From NCBI GenBank assembly GCA_000739535.1, contig DF820474.1:6799-50265 (forward strand): a DNA stretch of 43,467 nt, in the 5' to 3' direction. Of this stretch, positions 1,439 through 12,246 are shown piece by piece (the first letter of the stretch is position 1; the number at the start of each line of letters is the position of its first letter). Source of the DNA: Candidatus Vecturithrix granuli (lineage in GTDB: Bacteria; Moduliflexota; Moduliflexia; Moduliflexales; Moduliflexaceae). Position numbers and translations under genes: made by a program. The notes beneath the pieces were generated by a model. That model saw only the letters and a program-made list of their open reading frames with translations. It had not been told where the DNA came from and ran no database searches.

Positions 1439-1458
1439 ATGGCCAACGAACCGATTGA
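1439..1458 (+). repeat. 20-nt duplicate of the Res gene start
   Basis: ATGGCCAACGAACCGATTGA occurs here and again at 2659-2678, where it is the first 20 nt of the restriction-helicase gene. Here it opens only a 20-codon frame that ends inside the TIR gene. It looks like a footprint of the event that placed the TIR gene between the protease relic and Res. Confidence 0.8.
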
Positions 1459-1478: not shown

Positions 1479-2396
1479 ATGGATATAGAAGCGCAGGGTG
1501 ACATCAAAGTCTTTATCTGCTACGCCAGAGAAGATATGGCGATCGCCAAATATTTGTATCAGGATTTGCGCCAACCCGGCATACGACCCTGGATGGATAC
1601 GGAAGATTTGCAACCCGGGCAGCAATGGAAAGAGGTCATTGCCGACGAACTGCAGCGCAGCGACTTTGTGCTGGTGCTGCTCTCGTCCCGTTCTCTGACG
1701 GAATACGGCTATGTTCGCAAAGAACTGAACGACATACTTGACCTGGTGAAACGATGCCCGTCGGATCGCTGTTTTCTGATTCCGGTGCGCCTGGAAGCGT
1801 GTGAACCGAAAGAGGAACAATTGCGACAGATTCAGTGCTACGACCTTTTTCTTCAATCGTATCCCAAAGGGTTGACGCAGATTTTCAAGGTCCTTCTGCC
1901 GAACGGCAGACGGGTTGCGCTCCGCCGCGAGCCGATGACGGTGTCAGAAAAGGACAGGTACAAGGTATTTGAACTTAAGGGACACAATTTCCCACGCACC
2001 TATATTGGGAATGATTTTGAAGACCAGGGCGAGGTCGTTATTGACCATGCCACCAGCCTGATGTGGCAAAAATCCGGCTCACCGAACCTCATGACGTATG
2101 CAGAGGCTCAGGAGTATATCAAGGCGCTCAACCGGGAACGTTTTGCCGGATTCGCTGACTGGCGTCTGCCCACCATCCCGGAACTTATATCATTGATAGA
2201 ACTAGAGCAACAGGAGAACGGCTTGCATATCAACCCGATTTTTGACGTAACGCAATGGTGGTGTTGGAGCGCGGATCGCTTACCAGAAGGTGGTTCGCCG
2301 TGGTCGGCGTGGAGCGTCAATTTTCGCAACAGCAACGTGTACTGGAGCTACTTCGACAACACCCGCAGTTCCATCCGCGCGGTGCGTTCCAAATAA
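1479..2396 (+). CDS. TIR-domain protein with C-terminal DUF1566 (C-type-lectin-like) domain
   Basis: A 305-residue two-domain protein. Residues about 9-135 form a TIR domain: KVFICYARED (first strand and BB-loop side), DxFVLVLLSSRSL, and YVRKEL with E82 at the position of the catalytic glutamate of TIR NADases. Residues about 175-305 are a DUF1566/Lcl-type domain (ATSLMWQKSG, GFADWRLPTIPEL, WCWSAD, final SSIRAVRS), related to the C-type-lectin/FGE fold. TIR domains in bacterial immunity deplete or cyclise NAD once triggered; the lectin-like half would be the sensor. The ATG follows GAGAGGAAG. The 3' end looks like a hypervariable target (see 2299-2393). Domain calls are firm; the defence role is inferred from architecture and neighbours. 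Confidence 0.85.
   Translation: MDIEAQGDIKVFICYAREDMAIAKYLYQDLRQPGIRPWMDTEDLQPGQQWKEVIADELQRSDFVLVLLSSRSLTEYGYVRKELNDILDLVKRCPSDRCFLIPVRLEACEPKEEQLRQIQCYDLFLQSYPKGLTQIFKVLLPNGRRVALRREPMTVSEKDRYKVFELKGHNFPRTYIGNDFEDQGEVVIDHATSLMWQKSGSPNLMTYAEAQEYIKALNRERFAGFADWRLPTIPELISLIELEQQENGLHINPIFDVTQWWCWSADRLPEGGSPWSAWSVNFRNSNVYWSYFDNTRSSIRAVRSK
2299..2393 (+). other. Candidate diversity-generating-retroelement variable region
   Basis: The last stretch of the DUF1566 domain is rich in NNC codons that A-directed mutagenesis of AAC would produce: AAC, AGC, AAC, TAC, AGC, TAC, TTC, GAC and AAC lie between invariant-looking GTG and TGG codons, and the gene ends with ATCCGCGCGGTGCG (IRAVR). Position at the extreme 3' end of a lectin-fold gene is where DGR variable regions lie. 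No template repeat, reverse transcriptase or Avd gene is in the window, so this is a candidate only. Confidence 0.4.
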
Positions 2397-2510
2397 TGAT
2401 ATTGGTCATTTGATTATTTGACTCTTTGATCCTTTGCTTTTGGGGGCCCTTCGACGAGGCTCAGGATACGGTAAAGGAGGCTTATTCATACGGATCAAGC
2501 TTACGGTTTT

Positions 2511-2658: not shown

Positions 2659-5600
2659 ATGGCCAACGAACCGATTGAGAATCCGGTGATTAATTCACCT
2701 TTTGCAGAACCGCTGCGGCATTTTCGATTCAGCGACGCGGGCATTACGAATGAAATCGCGCCGGGCCGGCGCAAAAGCGTCTATTTTATCCCGATTGCAA
2801 AGCCCAAACAGCGCAGCAGCCAATTATCGCTGCAATACGAACAGCAGAGCGAAGCCAGAGAGAATCGCCTGATTAACGAATTGCGGGAAAAGGTCGCGCC
2901 CTGGCGGCGCGCCGACTATCCGGGCGTCAGTTACACCACGCGCCGTCTGTTGGAATACTGGCAGCGCGCGGAGCGCGAACGCCGGCTGTTTTTCTGCCAG
3001 ATCGAGGCGTTGGAAATCATTATCTATCTGACCGAATTGGGCCGCAATGCGGATCTGAATTATTTTGAGAACCAACTGCGCGAGGCCAACGCCAACGCCA
3101 CGCCTGAAGGCCATGCACCCCTGCCGCGCATCGCGTTTAAGATGGCGACCGGCAGCGGCAAAACCGTCGTGATGGCGATGCTGATCGCCTGGCACACGCT
3201 CAACAAGCTCGCCGACCGCCAGGCGCGTAAGTTTTCAGACGCGTTTCTGATTGTGACCCCGGGTCTGACAATCCGCGACCGTCTGCGCGTGCTGCTGCCC
3301 AACGACCCTGACAATTATTACCAGCGATTAGACCTCACGCCGCCCTCGATGTTCGCTGATTTAGGACAAGCCAAAATCTTGATCGCCAATTACCACGCCT
3401 TTCTGCTGCACGAACATACGAAAGCCGGAAAATTGACCAAAACTCTTCTGACGCCGAACAATGCGGCCAGTCCTTTCACCGAAACTCCGGGACAAATGGT
3501 GCGGCGCGTGTGCGGAGCCTTTGGCGGCAAAAAGGGGATCATCGTCATCAACGACGAAGCGCACCACTGTTACCATCCGAAACCGGATGACCGCAAAATC
3601 AAGCCGGAAGATGTTGATCTGAAAGAACTCGAAAGCCTGGAAGAAGAAGCGCGGGTCTGGATTAACGGGTTAGAAGCGATTCAGCAGAAGATCGGCGTGC
3701 GCGCGATCTATGATCTTTCGGCCACGCCCTTTTTTCTGCGCAGTTCCGGTTACAATGAAGGCATGTTGTTTCCCTGGGTGGTCTCTGATTTCTCCCTGAC
3801 CGACGCCATTGAGAGCAGTATTGTCAAAGTGCCGCGCGTGCCGGTGGCGGATAATACAGCTCAGGCTGAAGATTTGATCTACCGCAACCTCTGGAAACAC
3901 ATTCGCAAGGACATTCCCAAAGGCACGCGCCGCAAAGAGGACGAGGGCAGCGAACCGACCCTGCCCAAAGAACTTCAGGGCGCGCTGCACAGCCTGTACA
4001 GTCATTACGAAAAAACGTATAAACTCTGGGAACAGGCGCGGCTGAGCGGCGCAACTGACGCGCCGCCGCCGGTCTTTATCATCGTCTGCAACAATACGCG
4101 CACCTCCAAAACCCTGTTCGATTACGCGGCCGGCTATGAGAAAATCGAAAACGGTGCGCCGGTGCTTGTGCCGGGCAAACTGCCGCTGTTCAGCAACGTG
4201 GAGGAATCCGGCGCGATTACCGAACGCCGTTGGAGCACTCGCCCCAGCACGCTTCTGATTGATTCGCAGCAGTTGGAATCCGGCGAGAGCCTGAGCGCGG
4301 AGTTTAAAACCGCGGCGCAGCGCGAGATTGAAGAGTTCAAAGATGAACTGCGCGTCCGCTATCCGGGGCGCGATGTGACCACGCTGACCGATGAGGAACT
4401 ACTGCGCGAAGTCATGAACACGGTCGGCAAACCGGGCAAGCTTGGTGAGCAGATCAAGTGCGTGGTGTCGGTCTCCATGCTCACGGAAGGTTGGGATTGT
4501 TCGACTGTGACGCATATCCTCGGCGTGCGCGCCTTCGGCACGCAACTGCTGTGCGAGCAGGTCGTGGGTCGCGGACTGCGGCGCATGAGTTACGAACCTG
4601 AAACGCATACCGTTGAGATGGATGGAACAACGTTTGAATTTCAAGCCTTTCCGGTGGAATATGCCGAAGTCTATGGCGTGCCCTTCGAATTCATCCCCGC
4701 GGCCGGCAAAGCGCGCCAGATTCCCGGACCTGTAGCCGGCATCCGCGTGCAAAGCCTGACTGAACGCGCCGCGAGCCGCATTACCTTTCCGCGCGTGATG
4801 GGGTATTGCCATGAATTTGGCAGCGAACGTCTGAGCGCGCATTTCGACGAAAGCGCCCGCTATACACTCACGCCGCGCCATCTGCCCACCTTTGTCGAAA
4901 CCGCGCCGATTGTCGGTGAAACCAGTTTTCACGGACTCTACGATCTGCAACAGCGGCGCATGAATGAAGTCGCATTCTTCCTGGCCCGGCTGGTGTTAGA
5001 GCAGTATTTCCGCCAATCTGACGACCCGTCCGCCGGCTTCATCGGCAATCCTGCGGCAACGCCGGTCAAACCCTGGCTGTTTCCGCAACTGCTCGCGATT
5101 GTCAAAACCTGGCTGGATACCTGCCTGATCTGCAAGGATCAGACCTTTCCGCAAATGCTGCTGATTCACGAATACGCGCACACGGCCGCGGACCGCATTT
5201 ATCACGGCATCGCCCACGCTATGAGCGCGGAGAGCCGCCTCAAGCCGCTTTTGCACCCCGTCGAAAGCGTCGGCAGCACCGATGAAGTTAATTTTCTCAC
5301 GCGCAAACCGGTCTATCTCACGAACGCCAAATGTCCGCTGTCGCATATTGTGCTGGATAGCGGCTGGGAGCGCAACGTGGCGCAGGCCCTGGAACATCTG
5401 CCGCAGGTACAGGCCTACGTCAAAAACGCGCACCTCGACTTTACGATTCCCTATACATACCAGGGGCAGGATCGCCGCTATACTCCCGATTTTATCGCCA
5501 AAGTTGACGATGGGCGCGGCGCAGGGGATTTATTGCACCTCGTCATCGAGGTCTCCGGCGAACCCCGCGACGATAAAGCCGCCAAAGTCTCCACGATTAA

Positions 5601-5730
5601 GAATTTGTGGATTCCGGCCGTCAACAATAGCGGTCAATTCGGGCGCTGGGCGTATCTTGAAATTACAGACCCTTATCAGGCCATCAGCGGGTTACAGGCG
5701 TTTTTGGAGAACTACAGGGATTTCACATAA
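2659..5730 (+). CDS. Type III-like restriction endonuclease, SF2 helicase/nuclease subunit (Res)
   Basis: A 1023-residue DEAD/DEAH translocase with a C-terminal nuclease. Helicase motifs are in order: Walker A ATGSGKT (163-169), DEAH (299-302), SAT (354-356) and VVGRGLRR (635-642). The end carries a PD-(D/E)xK-like pair, PDF (943-945) and IEVSGE (963-968); the second half reads E-x-S, not E-x-K. Such subunits partner with beta-class methyltransferases, here at 9496-12246, separated by four other frames rather than adjacent. Together they would modify and restrict DNA at a short site. No strong ribosome site precedes 2659 (AGGGG about 11 nt upstream). The last codons lie inside a palindromic repeat. 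The type III-like assignment is confident; the recognition site is unknown. Confidence 0.9.
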   Translation: MANEPIENPVINSPFAEPLRHFRFSDAGITNEIAPGRRKSVYFIPIAKPKQRSSQLSLQYEQQSEARENRLINELREKVAPWRRADYPGVSYTTRRLLEYWQRAERERRLFFCQIEALEIIIYLTELGRNADLNYFENQLREANANATPEGHAPLPRIAFKMATGSGKTVVMAMLIAWHTLNKLADRQARKFSDAFLIVTPGLTIRDRLRVLLPNDPDNYYQRLDLTPPSMFADLGQAKILIANYHAFLLHEHTKAGKLTKTLLTPNNAASPFTETPGQMVRRVCGAFGGKKGIIVINDEAHHCYHPKPDDRKIKPEDVDLKELESLEEEARVWINGLEAIQQKIGVRAIYDLSATPFFLRSSGYNEGMLFPWVVSDFSLTDAIESSIVKVPRVPVADNTAQAEDLIYRNLWKHIRKDIPKGTRRKEDEGSEPTLPKELQGALHSLYSHYEKTYKLWEQARLSGATDAPPPVFIIVCNNTRTSKTLFDYAAGYEKIENGAPVLVPGKLPLFSNVEESGAITERRWSTRPSTLLIDSQQLESGESLSAEFKTAAQREIEEFKDELRVRYPGRDVTTLTDEELLREVMNTVGKPGKLGEQIKCVVSVSMLTEGWDCSTVTHILGVRAFGTQLLCEQVVGRGLRRMSYEPETHTVEMDGTTFEFQAFPVEYAEVYGVPFEFIPAAGKARQIPGPVAGIRVQSLTERAASRITFPRVMGYCHEFGSERLSAHFDESARYTLTPRHLPTFVETAPIVGETSFHGLYDLQQRRMNEVAFFLARLVLEQYFRQSDDPSAGFIGNPAATPVKPWLFPQLLAIVKTWLDTCLICKDQTFPQMLLIHEYAHTAADRIYHGIAHAMSAESRLKPLLHPVESVGSTDEVNFLTRKPVYLTNAKCPLSHIVLDSGWERNVAQALEHLPQVQAYVKNAHLDFTIPYTYQGQDRRYTPDFIAKVDDGRGAGDLLHLVIEVSGEPRDDKAAKVSTIKNLWIPAVNNSGQFGRWAYLEITDPYQAISGLQAFLENYRDFT

Positions 5731-7163: not shown

Positions 7164-9278
7164 ATGGCGATTGAACAAGAGATTGTCACTTGGTTAGAAC
7201 GACATAGCGACATTCTGGACCTTAAGGAAACGTCAGGACGCAAAGCATTCCTGTTTAAAGCAGATTTAACTGACCTTCAAAACAAGCTTAAACTGGAAGA
7301 AACCACCGCCATTTTTTGCAGCGACCTGGTGCAACGCCTTCGAAACTATGGCGCACTGTCCGATGGCCGCGATCCGCTGACTGCCGTGCTGGAAGCTGCA
7401 AAAACCATGGTGGGCCGCGACAAACAGGCAGAGTGCGATGCACTGATCGCCCGGCTGCAATCCGCGCCCCGGTCCCGGCAAGCAGGATGGCCCTCAACGA
7501 CGCCCCGCCATCTGCCCCCCATAGACGCATATTTTGTTGATCGGGAACAGCAATTAGCCGATCTGATGCGCGATCTCTATCCTGGAAAAGTGGTGACCCT
7601 TTGTGGCATGGGCGGAATTGGCAAAACCGCCCTGGCCGCGCAAGCGGCGCGGCAAATCGAACCGGAACGCTTTCCGGATGGCATTCTGTTCCATTCCTTT
7701 TACAAACAACGCGATCACAAGGTCGCCTTAGAATATATTGCCGCAACCTTCGGGATTGAGCCCAAACTGACACCGGAGAAAGCCGCGCAAATCGCCTTAG
7801 CAGGCAGACAGGCCTTACTGATTTTGGATGGCACAGAAGAAGCTGACGATTTGCGTCCAATTCTAAATGTACGGGGAACGTGTGGCGTGCTGATCACCAG
7901 CCGCAAGAAGCACGACGCGCTCCAAACGCGATTGAATCTATCTCCGTTAAGCCAACAATTCGCACTTGATTTACTCAATTCGTGGAGAGGGGCGCAAGGC
8001 ATGGATGCTGCCGCGCAACAGATTTGTGAAATCCTTGATGGACTTCCGTTAGCAGTCCGTCTGGTGGGACATTATCTGAGTGAAACGGGCGAACCGGCAA
8101 CTGAATACCTGGCGTGGTTAAAAACACAACCGTTTGACGCCTTAGATCGTGGCGACCATCGCGACGAAAGCGTCAAGGTGTTATTACGCCGGAGTGTGGC
8201 GCAACTCAGCGAACTTGCGAGGCAATCTTTAGCGGTTATTGGGCTGTTGGCGTTTGCGCCATGTGCGATTGAACCACTCGCCGCCGCGCTTGACTGTGAC
8301 ATCAGGCAATGCCAAACGGCAGCAGGCGAACTGGTCAATTTCGGCATCCTGCAAACGACCGCCGACCGGTATGAAATGTGCCACCGGTTAATTCATACCT
8401 ACGCGCAACACCAACTCCCATCTCCGCCAGAAGCTCTTGAACGCCTGGTCGCCTATTATCTCAATTTTATCAAAGAACAGCAACAACATGGACGTGCTGG
8501 TTATGCTCAAATGGATCCTGAACGTTTCCATCTAATGCAAGTGTTGGAAACCTGCCAGGAACGAGCAATGTGGTCATCGGTAAGCGTACTGGTTGGCAAG
8601 ATAGATACCTATTTAGACCGGCAGGGGTATTGGAGTGAACGGCAAGCCGCGCTGAAGATGAATCTGATAGCTGCTCACCAACAAGCAGATCAATCAGATG
8701 AGGCCTGGTGCGTCAACAATTTAGGACTCACGTGTTTGCATCGCGGCGATTACGCGACGGCCTTGACCTATTTGGAGCAGAGTTTGGCGATTCAACGCGA
8801 CATCGGCGACAAAGCGGGGGAAGGCACGACCCTGAATAACCTGAGCCAGATTTATGACGCGCGGGGCGATTACGCGACGGCCTTGACCTATTTGGAGCAG
8901 AGTTTGGCGATTCAACGCGAAATCGGCGACAAAGCGGGGGAAGGCGCGACCCTGAATAACCTGAGCCAGATTTTCAAAGCGCGGGGCGATTACGCGACGG
9001 CCTTGACCTATTTGGAGCAGAGTTTGGCGATCAGGCGCGAAATCGGCGACATCGCTGGAGTGTGCGCCACGTTGTTTAACATGGGGCATATCCATGTTCA
9101 GAACGAAGAATTGCAAGAAGCCCTCGAAGCGTGGGGCACAGTATACCGCCTCGCAAAACCGCGCAATCTGGCGCAAGCATTAGAGGCTCTGGACAATTTG
9201 GCCGGGCAATTAGGGCTTCCCGGCGGTTCGGAAGCATGGGAAAAGCTGGCTGCTGACATGGATGCAGCCATGAAATGA
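7164..9278 (+). CDS. STAND NTPase: NB-ARC with TPR repeats
   Basis: A 704-residue signal-transduction ATPase. Residues 1-100 are a small helical domain that may be an effector-associated adaptor (GRDPLTAVLEAAKTMVG...ALIARL). NB-ARC follows: Walker A GMGGIGKT (148-155), kinase-2 LILDG (219-223), sensor LITSRKK, and GLPL (293-296). A winged-helix-like region leads to TPRs; three near-identical 40-residue repeats with GDYATALTYLEQSLAI span about 528-632. Such proteins (the Avs and NLR-like class) bind an invader molecule through the repeats and oligomerise to trigger an effector. No nuclease or TIR is fused; the effector would be recruited. There is no clear Shine-Dalgarno site. It lies between Res and Mod. 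Confidence 0.9.
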   Translation: MAIEQEIVTWLERHSDILDLKETSGRKAFLFKADLTDLQNKLKLEETTAIFCSDLVQRLRNYGALSDGRDPLTAVLEAAKTMVGRDKQAECDALIARLQSAPRSRQAGWPSTTPRHLPPIDAYFVDREQQLADLMRDLYPGKVVTLCGMGGIGKTALAAQAARQIEPERFPDGILFHSFYKQRDHKVALEYIAATFGIEPKLTPEKAAQIALAGRQALLILDGTEEADDLRPILNVRGTCGVLITSRKKHDALQTRLNLSPLSQQFALDLLNSWRGAQGMDAAAQQICEILDGLPLAVRLVGHYLSETGEPATEYLAWLKTQPFDALDRGDHRDESVKVLLRRSVAQLSELARQSLAVIGLLAFAPCAIEPLAAALDCDIRQCQTAAGELVNFGILQTTADRYEMCHRLIHTYAQHQLPSPPEALERLVAYYLNFIKEQQQHGRAGYAQMDPERFHLMQVLETCQERAMWSSVSVLVGKIDTYLDRQGYWSERQAALKMNLIAAHQQADQSDEAWCVNNLGLTCLHRGDYATALTYLEQSLAIQRDIGDKAGEGTTLNNLSQIYDARGDYATALTYLEQSLAIQREIGDKAGEGATLNNLSQIFKARGDYATALTYLEQSLAIRREIGDIAGVCATLFNMGHIHVQNEELQEALEAWGTVYRLAKPRNLAQALEALDNLAGQLGLPGGSEAWEKLAADMDAAMK
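8745..9057 (+). repeat. Tandem 120-bp coding repeats (TPRs)
   Basis: Units starting near 8745, 8865 and 8985 are in exact 120-bp register and nearly identical at nucleotide level, including synonymous positions (for example GGCGATTACGCGACGGCCTT in each). This implies recent expansion or gene conversion rather than selection on protein alone. Confidence 0.92.
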
Positions 9279-9495: not shown

Positions 9496-12246
9496 ATGCG
9501 ACGAACGAAGAAACCCGTTGAGGTTGAGAGCATTACGCACGTGTCTGACACGCGCAAGAATATTCCGACTGAGGAACTGCGCGATTTTGTGGCGGAGGAT
9601 GAACACAATCCCCCCAACAGTCTCTATCCGCGCAATCCTGACCTTGACCCGCAGTTGGTGTGGCAGGGGAAAGATGAACAGGATAGCGCGGACCTGGAAG
9701 TGCCGGTCGTGCCGATCTACATTCAGGAAAAAATTCATCCGCACGCCATTATTGAGGATATTCGCCGCCAGGCCAAACAGACCGCGCAGAAGCAAGGGGA
9801 AACCACGCTGGATCTGTTTGCGGATTTCAACGGCATTGACTTTGAGCAGCAGCTTGAGTTTTACCAGCACAACCAGAAATGGCAGAACCGCATGATTTTA
9901 GGCGATTCGCTCTTTGTGATGACCTCGCTCGCGGAAAAAGAAGGGCTGAAAGGGCAGGTGCAGATGATCTATCTTGACCCGCCCTACGGCATCAAATTCG
10001 GCTCGAACTGGCAGGTCAGTACCCGCAAGCGCGACGTGAAGGATGGCAAAGTCGAAGATGTCACGCGCCAGCCCGAACAGGTCAAAGCCTTCCGCGATAC
10101 CTGGAAACTCGGCATTCATTCCTATCTGGCCTATCTGCGCGACCGCCTGGCCGCAGCGCGGGAACTGCTGACCGACAGCGGCAGCGTGTTCGTGCAGATC
10201 GGGGATGAAAATGTGCATTTGGTGCGCTGCCTGCTGGATGAGGTGTTTGGGAGTGAGAATTTTGTTGCTCTTATTCTTTTTCGAAAAACTGGTGGATTAC
10301 AAACAAATCTTCTTGCTTCAGTTGGAGATTACCTTCTTTGGTATGCTAAAGATTTTTCCAATCTAAAATATCGGCAACTTTATCTTACAAAAAAACCTGG
10401 TCAATCTGGCGCATCACAATACAAATACACACTGCGAGATGGTGAGTTAATAGAATTATCTCCTGAAGAACTACAGGTAACTAATTCTTCCGAATTGTTA
10501 ACCCACGATAACCTAACTTCACAGGGTAATCCAATCATTGAATTTAAGTTTCAAGGTAAAATTTTTAGATCAAATTTTAAACCTCCAATACCAAGTTTAC
10601 AACGTCTTGCTGTTACAGGAAGACTCTTCCCAATTGGTAATACTTTACGCTATCTACGATCATTGTCGGACTTTCCAGTGTTTGAGATAAATGAACTCTG
10701 GGAAGATGTTGGAACAAGTGGGTTTTCTGAGAAAAAAATATATGTTGTTCAAACCAACCCTTCTGTCATTGAACGTTGCCTCCTGATGACCACCGACCCC
10801 GGAGATTTAGTGCTTGACCCGACCTGCGGCAGCGGCACAACCGCATACATGGCGGAGCAGTGGGGCCGGCGCTGGATTACGTGCGACACCTCCCGCGTCG
10901 CATTGGCGCTCGCCCGGACGCGCCTGATGGCCGCGAAATATCCCTATTACCTGCTGGCCGATTCCTCCGACGGGCTGAAAAAAGAGGCTGAATGCACGGG
11001 CAAAGTGCCGGAAAATCTGCACACCGGGGGCGACATCAAAAAAGGCTTTGTGTATAAGCGTGTGCCGCACATCACGCTCAAATCCATTGCCAACAATGTG
11101 GAAATTGACGTGCTTCACGCGCAGTATCAGGCACAGCTTGAACCGCTGCGCGCCAGACTGAACGAGCTGCTGCGCCAGAATTGGGAAGAATGGGAAATCC
11201 CGCGTCATGCGAATGATGATTGGTCGCAGGCCACCAAAGACACGCTGGCCCAATGGTGGGAACTGCGCCAGCAGCGCCAGCAAGCCATTGACGCGGCGAT
11301 TGCTCGCAATGCAGACACGGAAACCCTGTTTGACCAGCCTGTTGAAGACAACAAGAAAATCCGCGTGACCGGCCCCTTTACGGTCGAAAGCCTCTCGCCC
11401 CATCGCGTGTTATCCACTGACATTGACCAGCCGCAGTCGGAGCAGGCGGCGCGGGCAGAAAGCGCAGGCGGCGATTTTACCACCCTGCTGCTTGAAAATC
11501 TGCGCAAAGCCGGGGTGCAGAACACGATCAAAAACGAACGCCTGAAATTCGACAGCCTCGACCCCTATTCCGGCCGCTGGATTCAGGCCGAAGGCCGCTA
11601 CACAGAACAGGACGGCGCAGCCCGACGCGCCGCGATTTCGATTGGCCCGGAACATGGCGCGGTCAGTCCGCAGCAGGTTAAAGAAGCCTGCAAAGAAGCG
11701 GTGCAGGGGCTGGGGTTTGACGTGCTGCTGGTCTGCGGCCTGGCCTTTGACCCCCATGTCTCAGAAGAAGCCAGACGCTACGGTAAACTGGTCGTGCTGC
11801 CGGTGCGCGTCAATCCTGATCTGGTCATGGGCGGCGATCTTTTGAAAAAAACCGGCAGCGGCAACCTGTTCATGATTTTCGGCGAGCCGGATTTAGAGAT
11901 TCGCCGGACAAAAGACGGCAAGGTGCAGGTCGAATTATTGGGGCTGGACATCTACGATCCCACGACCGGCCAGATTCGCAGCAATTCCACCCGCGAGATC
12001 GCCTGCTGGTTTATTGACACCAATTACAACGAAGAGAGCTTTTTCGTGCGCCATGCCTATTTCACCGGCGGCGACGAACCCTACGACAAGCTGAAACGCG
12101 CCTTAAAAGCCGAAATTGACGAGGCCGCCTGGTCGCAGCTCTACTCCACCGTCAGCCGCCCCTTCGATTCGCCGGAATCGGGCAAAATCGCCGTCAAAGT
12201 TATCAACCACTACGGCGACGAGGTATTAAAGGTGTTTGCGGTATAG
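9496..12246 (+). CDS. Type III-like site-specific DNA methyltransferase (Mod)
   Basis: A 916-residue adenine/cytosine-N methyltransferase. DPPY (161-164, within LDPPYGIKFGSNW) precedes the SAM-binding motif DPTCGSGTT (441-449), which is the beta-class order of type III Mod proteins. The region between, about residues 250-425, is the target-recognition part. The 450-residue C-terminal extension (to LKVFAV) is long, as in the large Mod partners of Res-like helicases. Its product would protect sites cut by the Res at 2659. No Shine-Dalgarno is visible; a hairpin ends 8 nt upstream. Codons for the recognition region are far more AT-rich than the flanks (see 10240-10780). Confidence 0.93.
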   Translation: MRRTKKPVEVESITHVSDTRKNIPTEELRDFVAEDEHNPPNSLYPRNPDLDPQLVWQGKDEQDSADLEVPVVPIYIQEKIHPHAIIEDIRRQAKQTAQKQGETTLDLFADFNGIDFEQQLEFYQHNQKWQNRMILGDSLFVMTSLAEKEGLKGQVQMIYLDPPYGIKFGSNWQVSTRKRDVKDGKVEDVTRQPEQVKAFRDTWKLGIHSYLAYLRDRLAAARELLTDSGSVFVQIGDENVHLVRCLLDEVFGSENFVALILFRKTGGLQTNLLASVGDYLLWYAKDFSNLKYRQLYLTKKPGQSGASQYKYTLRDGELIELSPEELQVTNSSELLTHDNLTSQGNPIIEFKFQGKIFRSNFKPPIPSLQRLAVTGRLFPIGNTLRYLRSLSDFPVFEINELWEDVGTSGFSEKKIYVVQTNPSVIERCLLMTTDPGDLVLDPTCGSGTTAYMAEQWGRRWITCDTSRVALALARTRLMAAKYPYYLLADSSDGLKKEAECTGKVPENLHTGGDIKKGFVYKRVPHITLKSIANNVEIDVLHAQYQAQLEPLRARLNELLRQNWEEWEIPRHANDDWSQATKDTLAQWWELRQQRQQAIDAAIARNADTETLFDQPVEDNKKIRVTGPFTVESLSPHRVLSTDIDQPQSEQAARAESAGGDFTTLLLENLRKAGVQNTIKNERLKFDSLDPYSGRWIQAEGRYTEQDGAARRAAISIGPEHGAVSPQQVKEACKEAVQGLGFDVLLVCGLAFDPHVSEEARRYGKLVVLPVRVNPDLVMGGDLLKKTGSGNLFMIFGEPDLEIRRTKDGKVQVELLGLDIYDPTTGQIRSNSTREIACWFIDTNYNEESFFVRHAYFTGGDEPYDKLKRALKAEIDEAAWSQLYSTVSRPFDSPESGKIAVKVINHYGDEVLKVFAV
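10240..10780 (+). other. AT-rich target-recognition segment inside Mod
   Basis: From about 10240 to 10780 the coding sequence shifts from GC-rich, C/G-ending codons to AT-rich text (for example GAATTTTGTTGCTCTTATTC), then returns abruptly to GC-rich codons just before DPTCGSGTT. The edges match the border between conserved catalytic motifs and the specificity region. It looks like a recombined recognition domain from another source. Edges are judged by eye. Confidence 0.75.

Follow-up and report, generated by a model that had tools for sequence, protein, structure and literature searches.

Diversity-generating retroelements (DGRs) employ an error-prone reverse transcriptase (RT) that copies a non-coding template and mutates adenines, and the resulting cDNA replaces the variable repeat (VR) of the target. 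Several described systems bear on the gene reported here, the closest precedent being the DGR-diversified conflict sensors of multicellular bacteria found in Thiohalocapsa PB-PSB1 (Doré et al. 2024, PMC10907252). There, as in the present genome, C-type-lectin-fold variable tails are associated with STAND, NACHT, TIR and MoxR/vWA-associated proteins, and further likenesses are the presence of several loci per genome, incomplete loci, action in trans, and hosts that form filaments or aggregates. The tails named in that study are however FGE-type CLec domains, and its TIR target also has a CHAT domain. Lectin-fold sensors combined with effectors and NTPases, often with a DGR, have likewise been described (Kaur 2020, PMC7159879; Kaur 2021, PMC8195603), although these use the FGS/FGE domain, whereas the gene considered here uses Lcl_C, the current Pfam name for the former DUF1566. 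DUF1566 has itself been reported as the commonest Pfam domain among DGR targets (Ye 2014, PMC4159848; Yan 2019, PMC6642488), congruent with the initial annotation, which called it an established DGR target. Those targets share with ours the domain family and the C-terminal VR, but belong to pilin, lipoprotein, adhesin-like or toxin contexts, and TIR is not mentioned in PMC6642488. Finally, remote variable proteins of cyanobacteria (PMC7517822) are paralogues encoded far from the RT, with a VR that shares at least 50% DNA identity with one belonging to the DGR of that genome. KSB3 bacteria so far described are filamentous (PMC4312070), and in the literature searched we found no publication treating diversity-generating retroelements together with KSB3.

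Here we analysed a window of 43,467 nucleotides from Candidatus Vecturithrix granuli, located on the contig referred to as C10. The features relevant to the argument, with the evidence for each in brackets, are as follows.

1439 to 1458, forward strand: first copy of a 20-bp direct repeat, preceding the TIR-Lcl_C gene (repeat search)
1479 to 2396, forward strand: TIR-Lcl_C protein, candidate remote DGR variable protein (ORF, Pfam)
1509 to 1880, forward strand: TIR_2 domain (Pfam; PADLOC TIR matches)
2034 to 2387, forward strand: Lcl_C (formerly DUF1566), C-type-lectin fold (Pfam; AlphaFold2; VIA-align)
2293 to 2399, forward strand: VR, homologous to the template at G000:C10:171132-171235, reverse strand (DNA comparison)
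2313 to 2366, forward strand: VR core, 18 codons long; template Asn (AAY) codons align with 11 of these (alignment with template)
2659 to 2678, forward strand: second copy of the 20-bp direct repeat, coinciding with the opening 20 bases of res (repeat search)
2659 to 5730, forward strand: type III restriction enzyme res subunit (Pfam ResIII; PADLOC REase_III)
7164 to 9278, forward strand: EAD8/NB-ARC/TPR protein, between res and mod (Pfam)
9496 to 12246, forward strand: type III methyltransferase mod (Pfam; PADLOC MTase_III, E 0)

As the initial annotation had proposed, the gene encodes a fusion of TIR and DUF1566, a protein of 305 amino acids with TIR_2 at residues 11-134 (E 6e-27) and Lcl_C (PF07603) at residues 186-303 (E 2e-23), and its placement in a restriction locus is equally correct, as it directly precedes the type III res gene. 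Glu82 of the TIR_2 domain, within the motif VRKEL, lines up with a Glu in two other TIR-Lcl_C proteins (L101 and L104) and is a candidate catalytic residue. The perfect 20-bp repeat has only two copies in the window, which bracket the TIR-Lcl_C cassette, the second coinciding with the start of res, suggesting that the cassette was inserted in front of res, where the restriction operon begins. The EAD8, NB-ARC and TPR gene represents a second conflict-type gene within the same type III restriction locus. On the other side of the cassette, a 95-aa ORF (1141-1428) matches PADLOC PDC-M52B models and holds a retropepsin-like motif that by eye has decayed to DSDAS; it is preceded by a 103-aa ORF with weak antitoxin-like DNA-binding matches.

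AlphaFold2 modelling of the Lcl_C domain alone with 65 sequences reached a pLDDT of 94, while the full protein with 11 sequences was poorly predicted (pLDDT 56) and that model was set aside. The top fold match of the domain model was the C-terminal domain of Legionella Lcl (8q4e; Z 11.0, 2.9 A over 113 residues, VIA-align), followed by many C-type-lectin domains, and we are confident that the predicted domain adopts a C-type-lectin fold. Mtd and TvpA, two known DGR variable proteins, were not among the fold matches listed, which is uninformative either way. On the model, the variable codons map to strands and loops at the very end of the domain.

The codons that follow TGG (2310) read AGC GTC AAT TTT CGC AAC AGC AAC GTG TAC TGG AGC TAC TTC GAC AAC ACC CGC. 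The run of NNC codons noticed initially in the C-terminal tail is thus real: 10 of the 11 codons aligned with template Asn end in C, versus 83/294 of the gene's remaining codons (Fisher p = 4e-5), or p = 0.03 when the comparison is restricted to NNY codons. Alone, the excess of C-ending codons is only suggestive of a DGR pattern; comparison with paralogues makes it strong. Against six other tails of the genome, leaving out L039, the window tail differs in 88/138 comparisons at template-A sites and in 29/186 elsewhere (permutation p < 5e-5).

Indeed, the tail belongs to a family. The genome encodes 15 Lcl_C genes, eight with an NNC tail: the window gene (TIR), L039 (adjoining the template described below), L035 (trypsin and TPR), L045 (nSTAND1), L038 (NACHT-like), L043, and two that are broken, L041 (a TIR-Lcl_C gene interrupted by stops) and L042 (a single in-frame TAG). 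The target-like tails, at least eight in number, are spread over six contigs and sit on differing conflict-type proteins. Over the 54-base core of the eight tails, the pairwise difference is 70% at template-A comparisons versus 17% elsewhere, where random bases would differ in 75% of comparisons. None of 20,000 permutations reached this contrast (p < 5e-5), with or without L039 and also for the window alone; since tail pairs are not independent, these figures are to be read as effect sizes more than exact probabilities. Codon identity at sites with the same residue is 79% in the VR and 51% upstream for the NNC-tail genes, versus 34% and 39%, respectively, for ordinary Lcl_C paralogues. As expected of a DGR target, the window gene encodes a C-type-lectin fold and has its VR at the 3' end, with the variation concentrated at template-A sites.

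Some further observations concern the family members. The two broken genes, L042 (G000:C21:600115) and L041 (G000:C20:198962), still have well-formed VRs despite upstream in-frame stops, and the fixed bases of the L042 VR are intact. Moreover, a conserved non-coding tail that starts with TTTGGTCATTTGATTATTTGATCC follows the stops of L035, L039, L040, L043 and L045, and in most target genes continues into a stem, ACAGGGGGC/GCCCCCTGT, and a T run; this element may be a terminator or a homing aid.

A template was located 162 kb from the window on the same contig, where a non-coding stretch (C10:171132-171235, reverse strand) reads as an Lcl_C tail with Asn codons. The sister Lcl_C gene L039 ends approximately 390 bases upstream of it, and its VR (C10:171621-171724) differs from the template at 13 of 104 nt, with 12 mismatches at template A and 0 at VR A (hypergeometric p = 5e-7). 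An automatic scan for template and VR pairs recovered the same two sequences. Template and L039 VR are a true template/VR pair, so that the genome holds what characterizes a DGR, a non-coding template with a VR differing from it at template adenines. Genes for VWA_CoxE, MoxR-like AAA and TIR proteins lie upstream of this target, the combination known from published ternary conflict systems. In L026:9130-14476, a MoxR-like AAA gene, a VWA_CoxE gene, an Lcl_C target, a DGR template and a TIR_2 gene stand together, forming a ternary-type conflict system whose template is stand-alone.

How does the window tail relate to this template? A whole-genome search with the template core returned only the template itself (0 mismatches) and the window VR (3 mismatches, all at template A), and the window VR is 76% identical to the template over 68 nt, and 79% to the group consensus. 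This lies above the 50% identity that defines the cyanobacterial remote variable proteins; unlike these, the window VR deviates at many non-A sites from the known template. Compared with that template it carries one additional codon and differs at 7/31 non-A core sites, and the A-bias measured against this template alone is not significant (p = 0.09). Neither is an IMH-like 3' homing end shared, the last 30 bases being identical at 19/30 positions (9 non-A mismatches), against 29/30 for L039. On account of the extra codon and the non-A mismatches, seven in the core and nine terminal, the stretch was rejected as the template from which the window tail was directly copied. The initial annotation had predicted a template differing from 2280-2396 at adenines only, and this was not found: the only Lcl_C template differs at non-A sites, and no template in the unmasked assembly matches the window VR at all non-A sites. 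The agreement is closer with two sister tails, L043 and L042, from which the window differs at 13-14/23 A sites and 3/31 others. Even against the inferred group template several fixed-site changes persist in the window, fitting drift. Since the only template found is not its own, the window gene would be a remote DGR target or a relic, and its VR was most likely derived through DGR writing from a sister template.

Such a sister template is also implied by L035, L042 and L043, whose tails share fixed bases of their own, yet a second Lcl_C template was not found in the unmasked assembly, either by pattern or with the DNA of the inferred consensus. A masked stretch of 261 bases after L035 was considered as a template site and is disfavoured, as its flanks by eye carry an inverted repeat, making an inserted element likelier there.

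The genome assembly comprises 8.4 Mb in 21 contigs, is 93.8% complete with an estimated contamination of 10.8%, and is masked in some stretches. Six RVT_1 matches occur at five places. DGR-type RTs are recognized by the motif [ILV]GxxxSQ, while the intron RTs of the same scan show QGxxxSP, and two near-identical RTs (L002 and L003), encoded on contigs C19 and C14, carry IGNLTSQ and hence are of the DGR type. Their closest PDB match (E 2e-49) is 8ub7, an entry named 'Reverse transcriptase', which we take to be the Bordetella DGR RT complex. Upstream of both RTs only the last ~30 residues are readable, the remainder being masked (3.7 kb before the C19 RT); as far as this partly masked stretch permits, these residues look like a putative accessory protein Avd. 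Directly following the C19 RT is an AAC-rich template of the FGE type, reading GGSWNNPARNMRCANRNNNRPDNRNTNIGFRLV; for the FGE-type template of L002, a VR was not found in the unmasked sequence. The genome scan for RVT_1 detected no RT on C10, and any RT serving the C10 template must therefore act in trans; the template and the RT loci have no common flanks or spacers. Thus, the DGR-type RT anticipated by the initial annotation does exist, twice, but on C14 and C19 and not next to the Lcl_C template. Together with the adenine-rich Lcl_C template and the contrast at A sites, these RTs agree with the notion that the tail arose from a template through adenine mutation.

A DGR origin of the window tail is therefore, as judged from these comparisons, very probable, and the readings that compete concern mainly its later history. 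That the cassette arose as a copy of a DGR target gene that was inserted before res, whereupon rewriting ended, is in our estimate an even call. The drift at fixed sites, the divergent 3' end and the bracketing 20-bp direct repeat are congruent with such a past, as is the decay of the related TIR-Lcl_C copy L041 through in-frame stops; against it, the reading frame of the window gene is intact, and the A-site divergence from its sister tails is near saturation, so that rewriting continued after the duplication. Whether the tail is still rewritten today is more doubtful, and we are similarly hesitant about the specific form in which a second template, unassembled or masked, would rewrite it in trans via the C14 or C19 RT. 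Precedents exist for trans targets and incomplete loci (Doré 2024, PMC10907252) and for remote variable proteins (PMC7517822), the assembly is incomplete and masked in places, including before the C19 RT, and the fixed bases of L035, L042 and L043 imply a template that the unmasked assembly lacks. The window tail however has private fixed-site changes (TTT, AGC, ACC, the extra codon and the divergent 3' end), and active rewriting is counted less likely because a recent rewrite would erase these, unless its own template carries them. An ordinary fast-evolving lectin tail with a preference for C-ending codons, for which the modest C excess among NNY codons speaks, is very improbable considering the A-site contrast of 0.70 versus 0.17 over eight tails, synonymous sites that are conserved in the VR and not upstream, and the presence in this genome of a true template/VR pair and DGR RTs. 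Hence we infer strongly that a DGR wrote the window copy, and weakly that it is active at present.

The scheme of the VR is not confined to this genome. The nearest family member of the host is the KSB3 genome G001, whose matches and their coordinates coincide with those in G097, from KSB3 bacterium DOLJORAL78, which contains L099. The VR DNA scheme is also found in other phyla, in Desulfococcaceae HSG8 and HSG9, Desulfobacteraceae and others, and the heads above it elsewhere include TIR (L101, L104), NACHT (L099, L103), caspase (L106), kinase (L108) and nSTAND3 (L100). HSG8 and HSG9 are known as multicellular magnetotactic bacteria. Each has a VR family in which the fixed bases are near-identical and the NNC codons vary strongly (L190, L194, L199, L203, L205 and L207 in HSG8; L192, L195, L198, L200, L202, L204 and L206 in HSG9), and in neither draft was a template or a DGR-type RT seen, the motif-bearing RTs being of the intron type. 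An Lcl_C template was not found in seven related genomes, apart from one coding tail, nor did 79 named loci show template/VR pairs within 8 kb of their Lcl_C genes. That such distant lineages, including HSG8 and HSG9, share the VR code suggests that the VR module travels between lineages.

The best explanation, which we consider highly likely, is that the window encodes a TIR-Lcl_C protein with a DGR variable-repeat tail and dispersed machinery, the gene being a remote target or a relic. What the data show directly is anatomy: the L039 template/VR pair, the RTs, the A-site pattern over the whole family, and the fold. A putative TIR effector is joined to a putative Lcl_C sensor, the C-terminal ~100 bp of which would constitute the VR. 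The machinery would comprise RTs on C14 and C19, presumably acting in trans on the Lcl_C template, an orphan on C10 beside one target, and tails elsewhere. By analogy to Doré 2024 and the FGS papers, the Lcl_C tail would most likely sense and bind a molecule of the invader, with the TIR domain acting as the killing or signalling effector through NAD+ depletion or signal production, sensing and NAD-type activity both being ascribed by family. The term self-diversifying immune receptor, used in the initial annotation, is plausible for the protein given its kinship to known systems.

Remote DGR targets in conflict proteins are already known; new are the direct TIR-Lcl_C fusion, the stand-alone Lcl_C template and the KSB3-family host. 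In contrast to the Doré 2024 systems, the tail is Lcl_C, the TIR domain is fused to it directly without an NTPase, and the Lcl_C template lies alone on a contig without an RT. By its sequence, the window protein is one of at least eight immune-type proteins in the genome with a common, putatively diversifiable tail. That one dispersed DGR actively rewrites this shared tail on TIR, trypsin, NACHT, nSTAND1 and MoxR/vWA effectors, with the module being passed between filament- or aggregate-forming phyla, is a wider scenario that we regard as unlikely at present. If true, a single hypervariable module would serve many killing mechanisms. The window gene itself, with its probable DGR origin, adds KSB3, a filamentous candidate phylum, and Lcl_C/DUF1566 to the DGR-diversified immune sensors, hitherto mainly FGE-type lectins. 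The compact protein, with TIR and sensor in 305 residues, would be a simple test case for targeted hypermutation as bacterial adaptive immunity.
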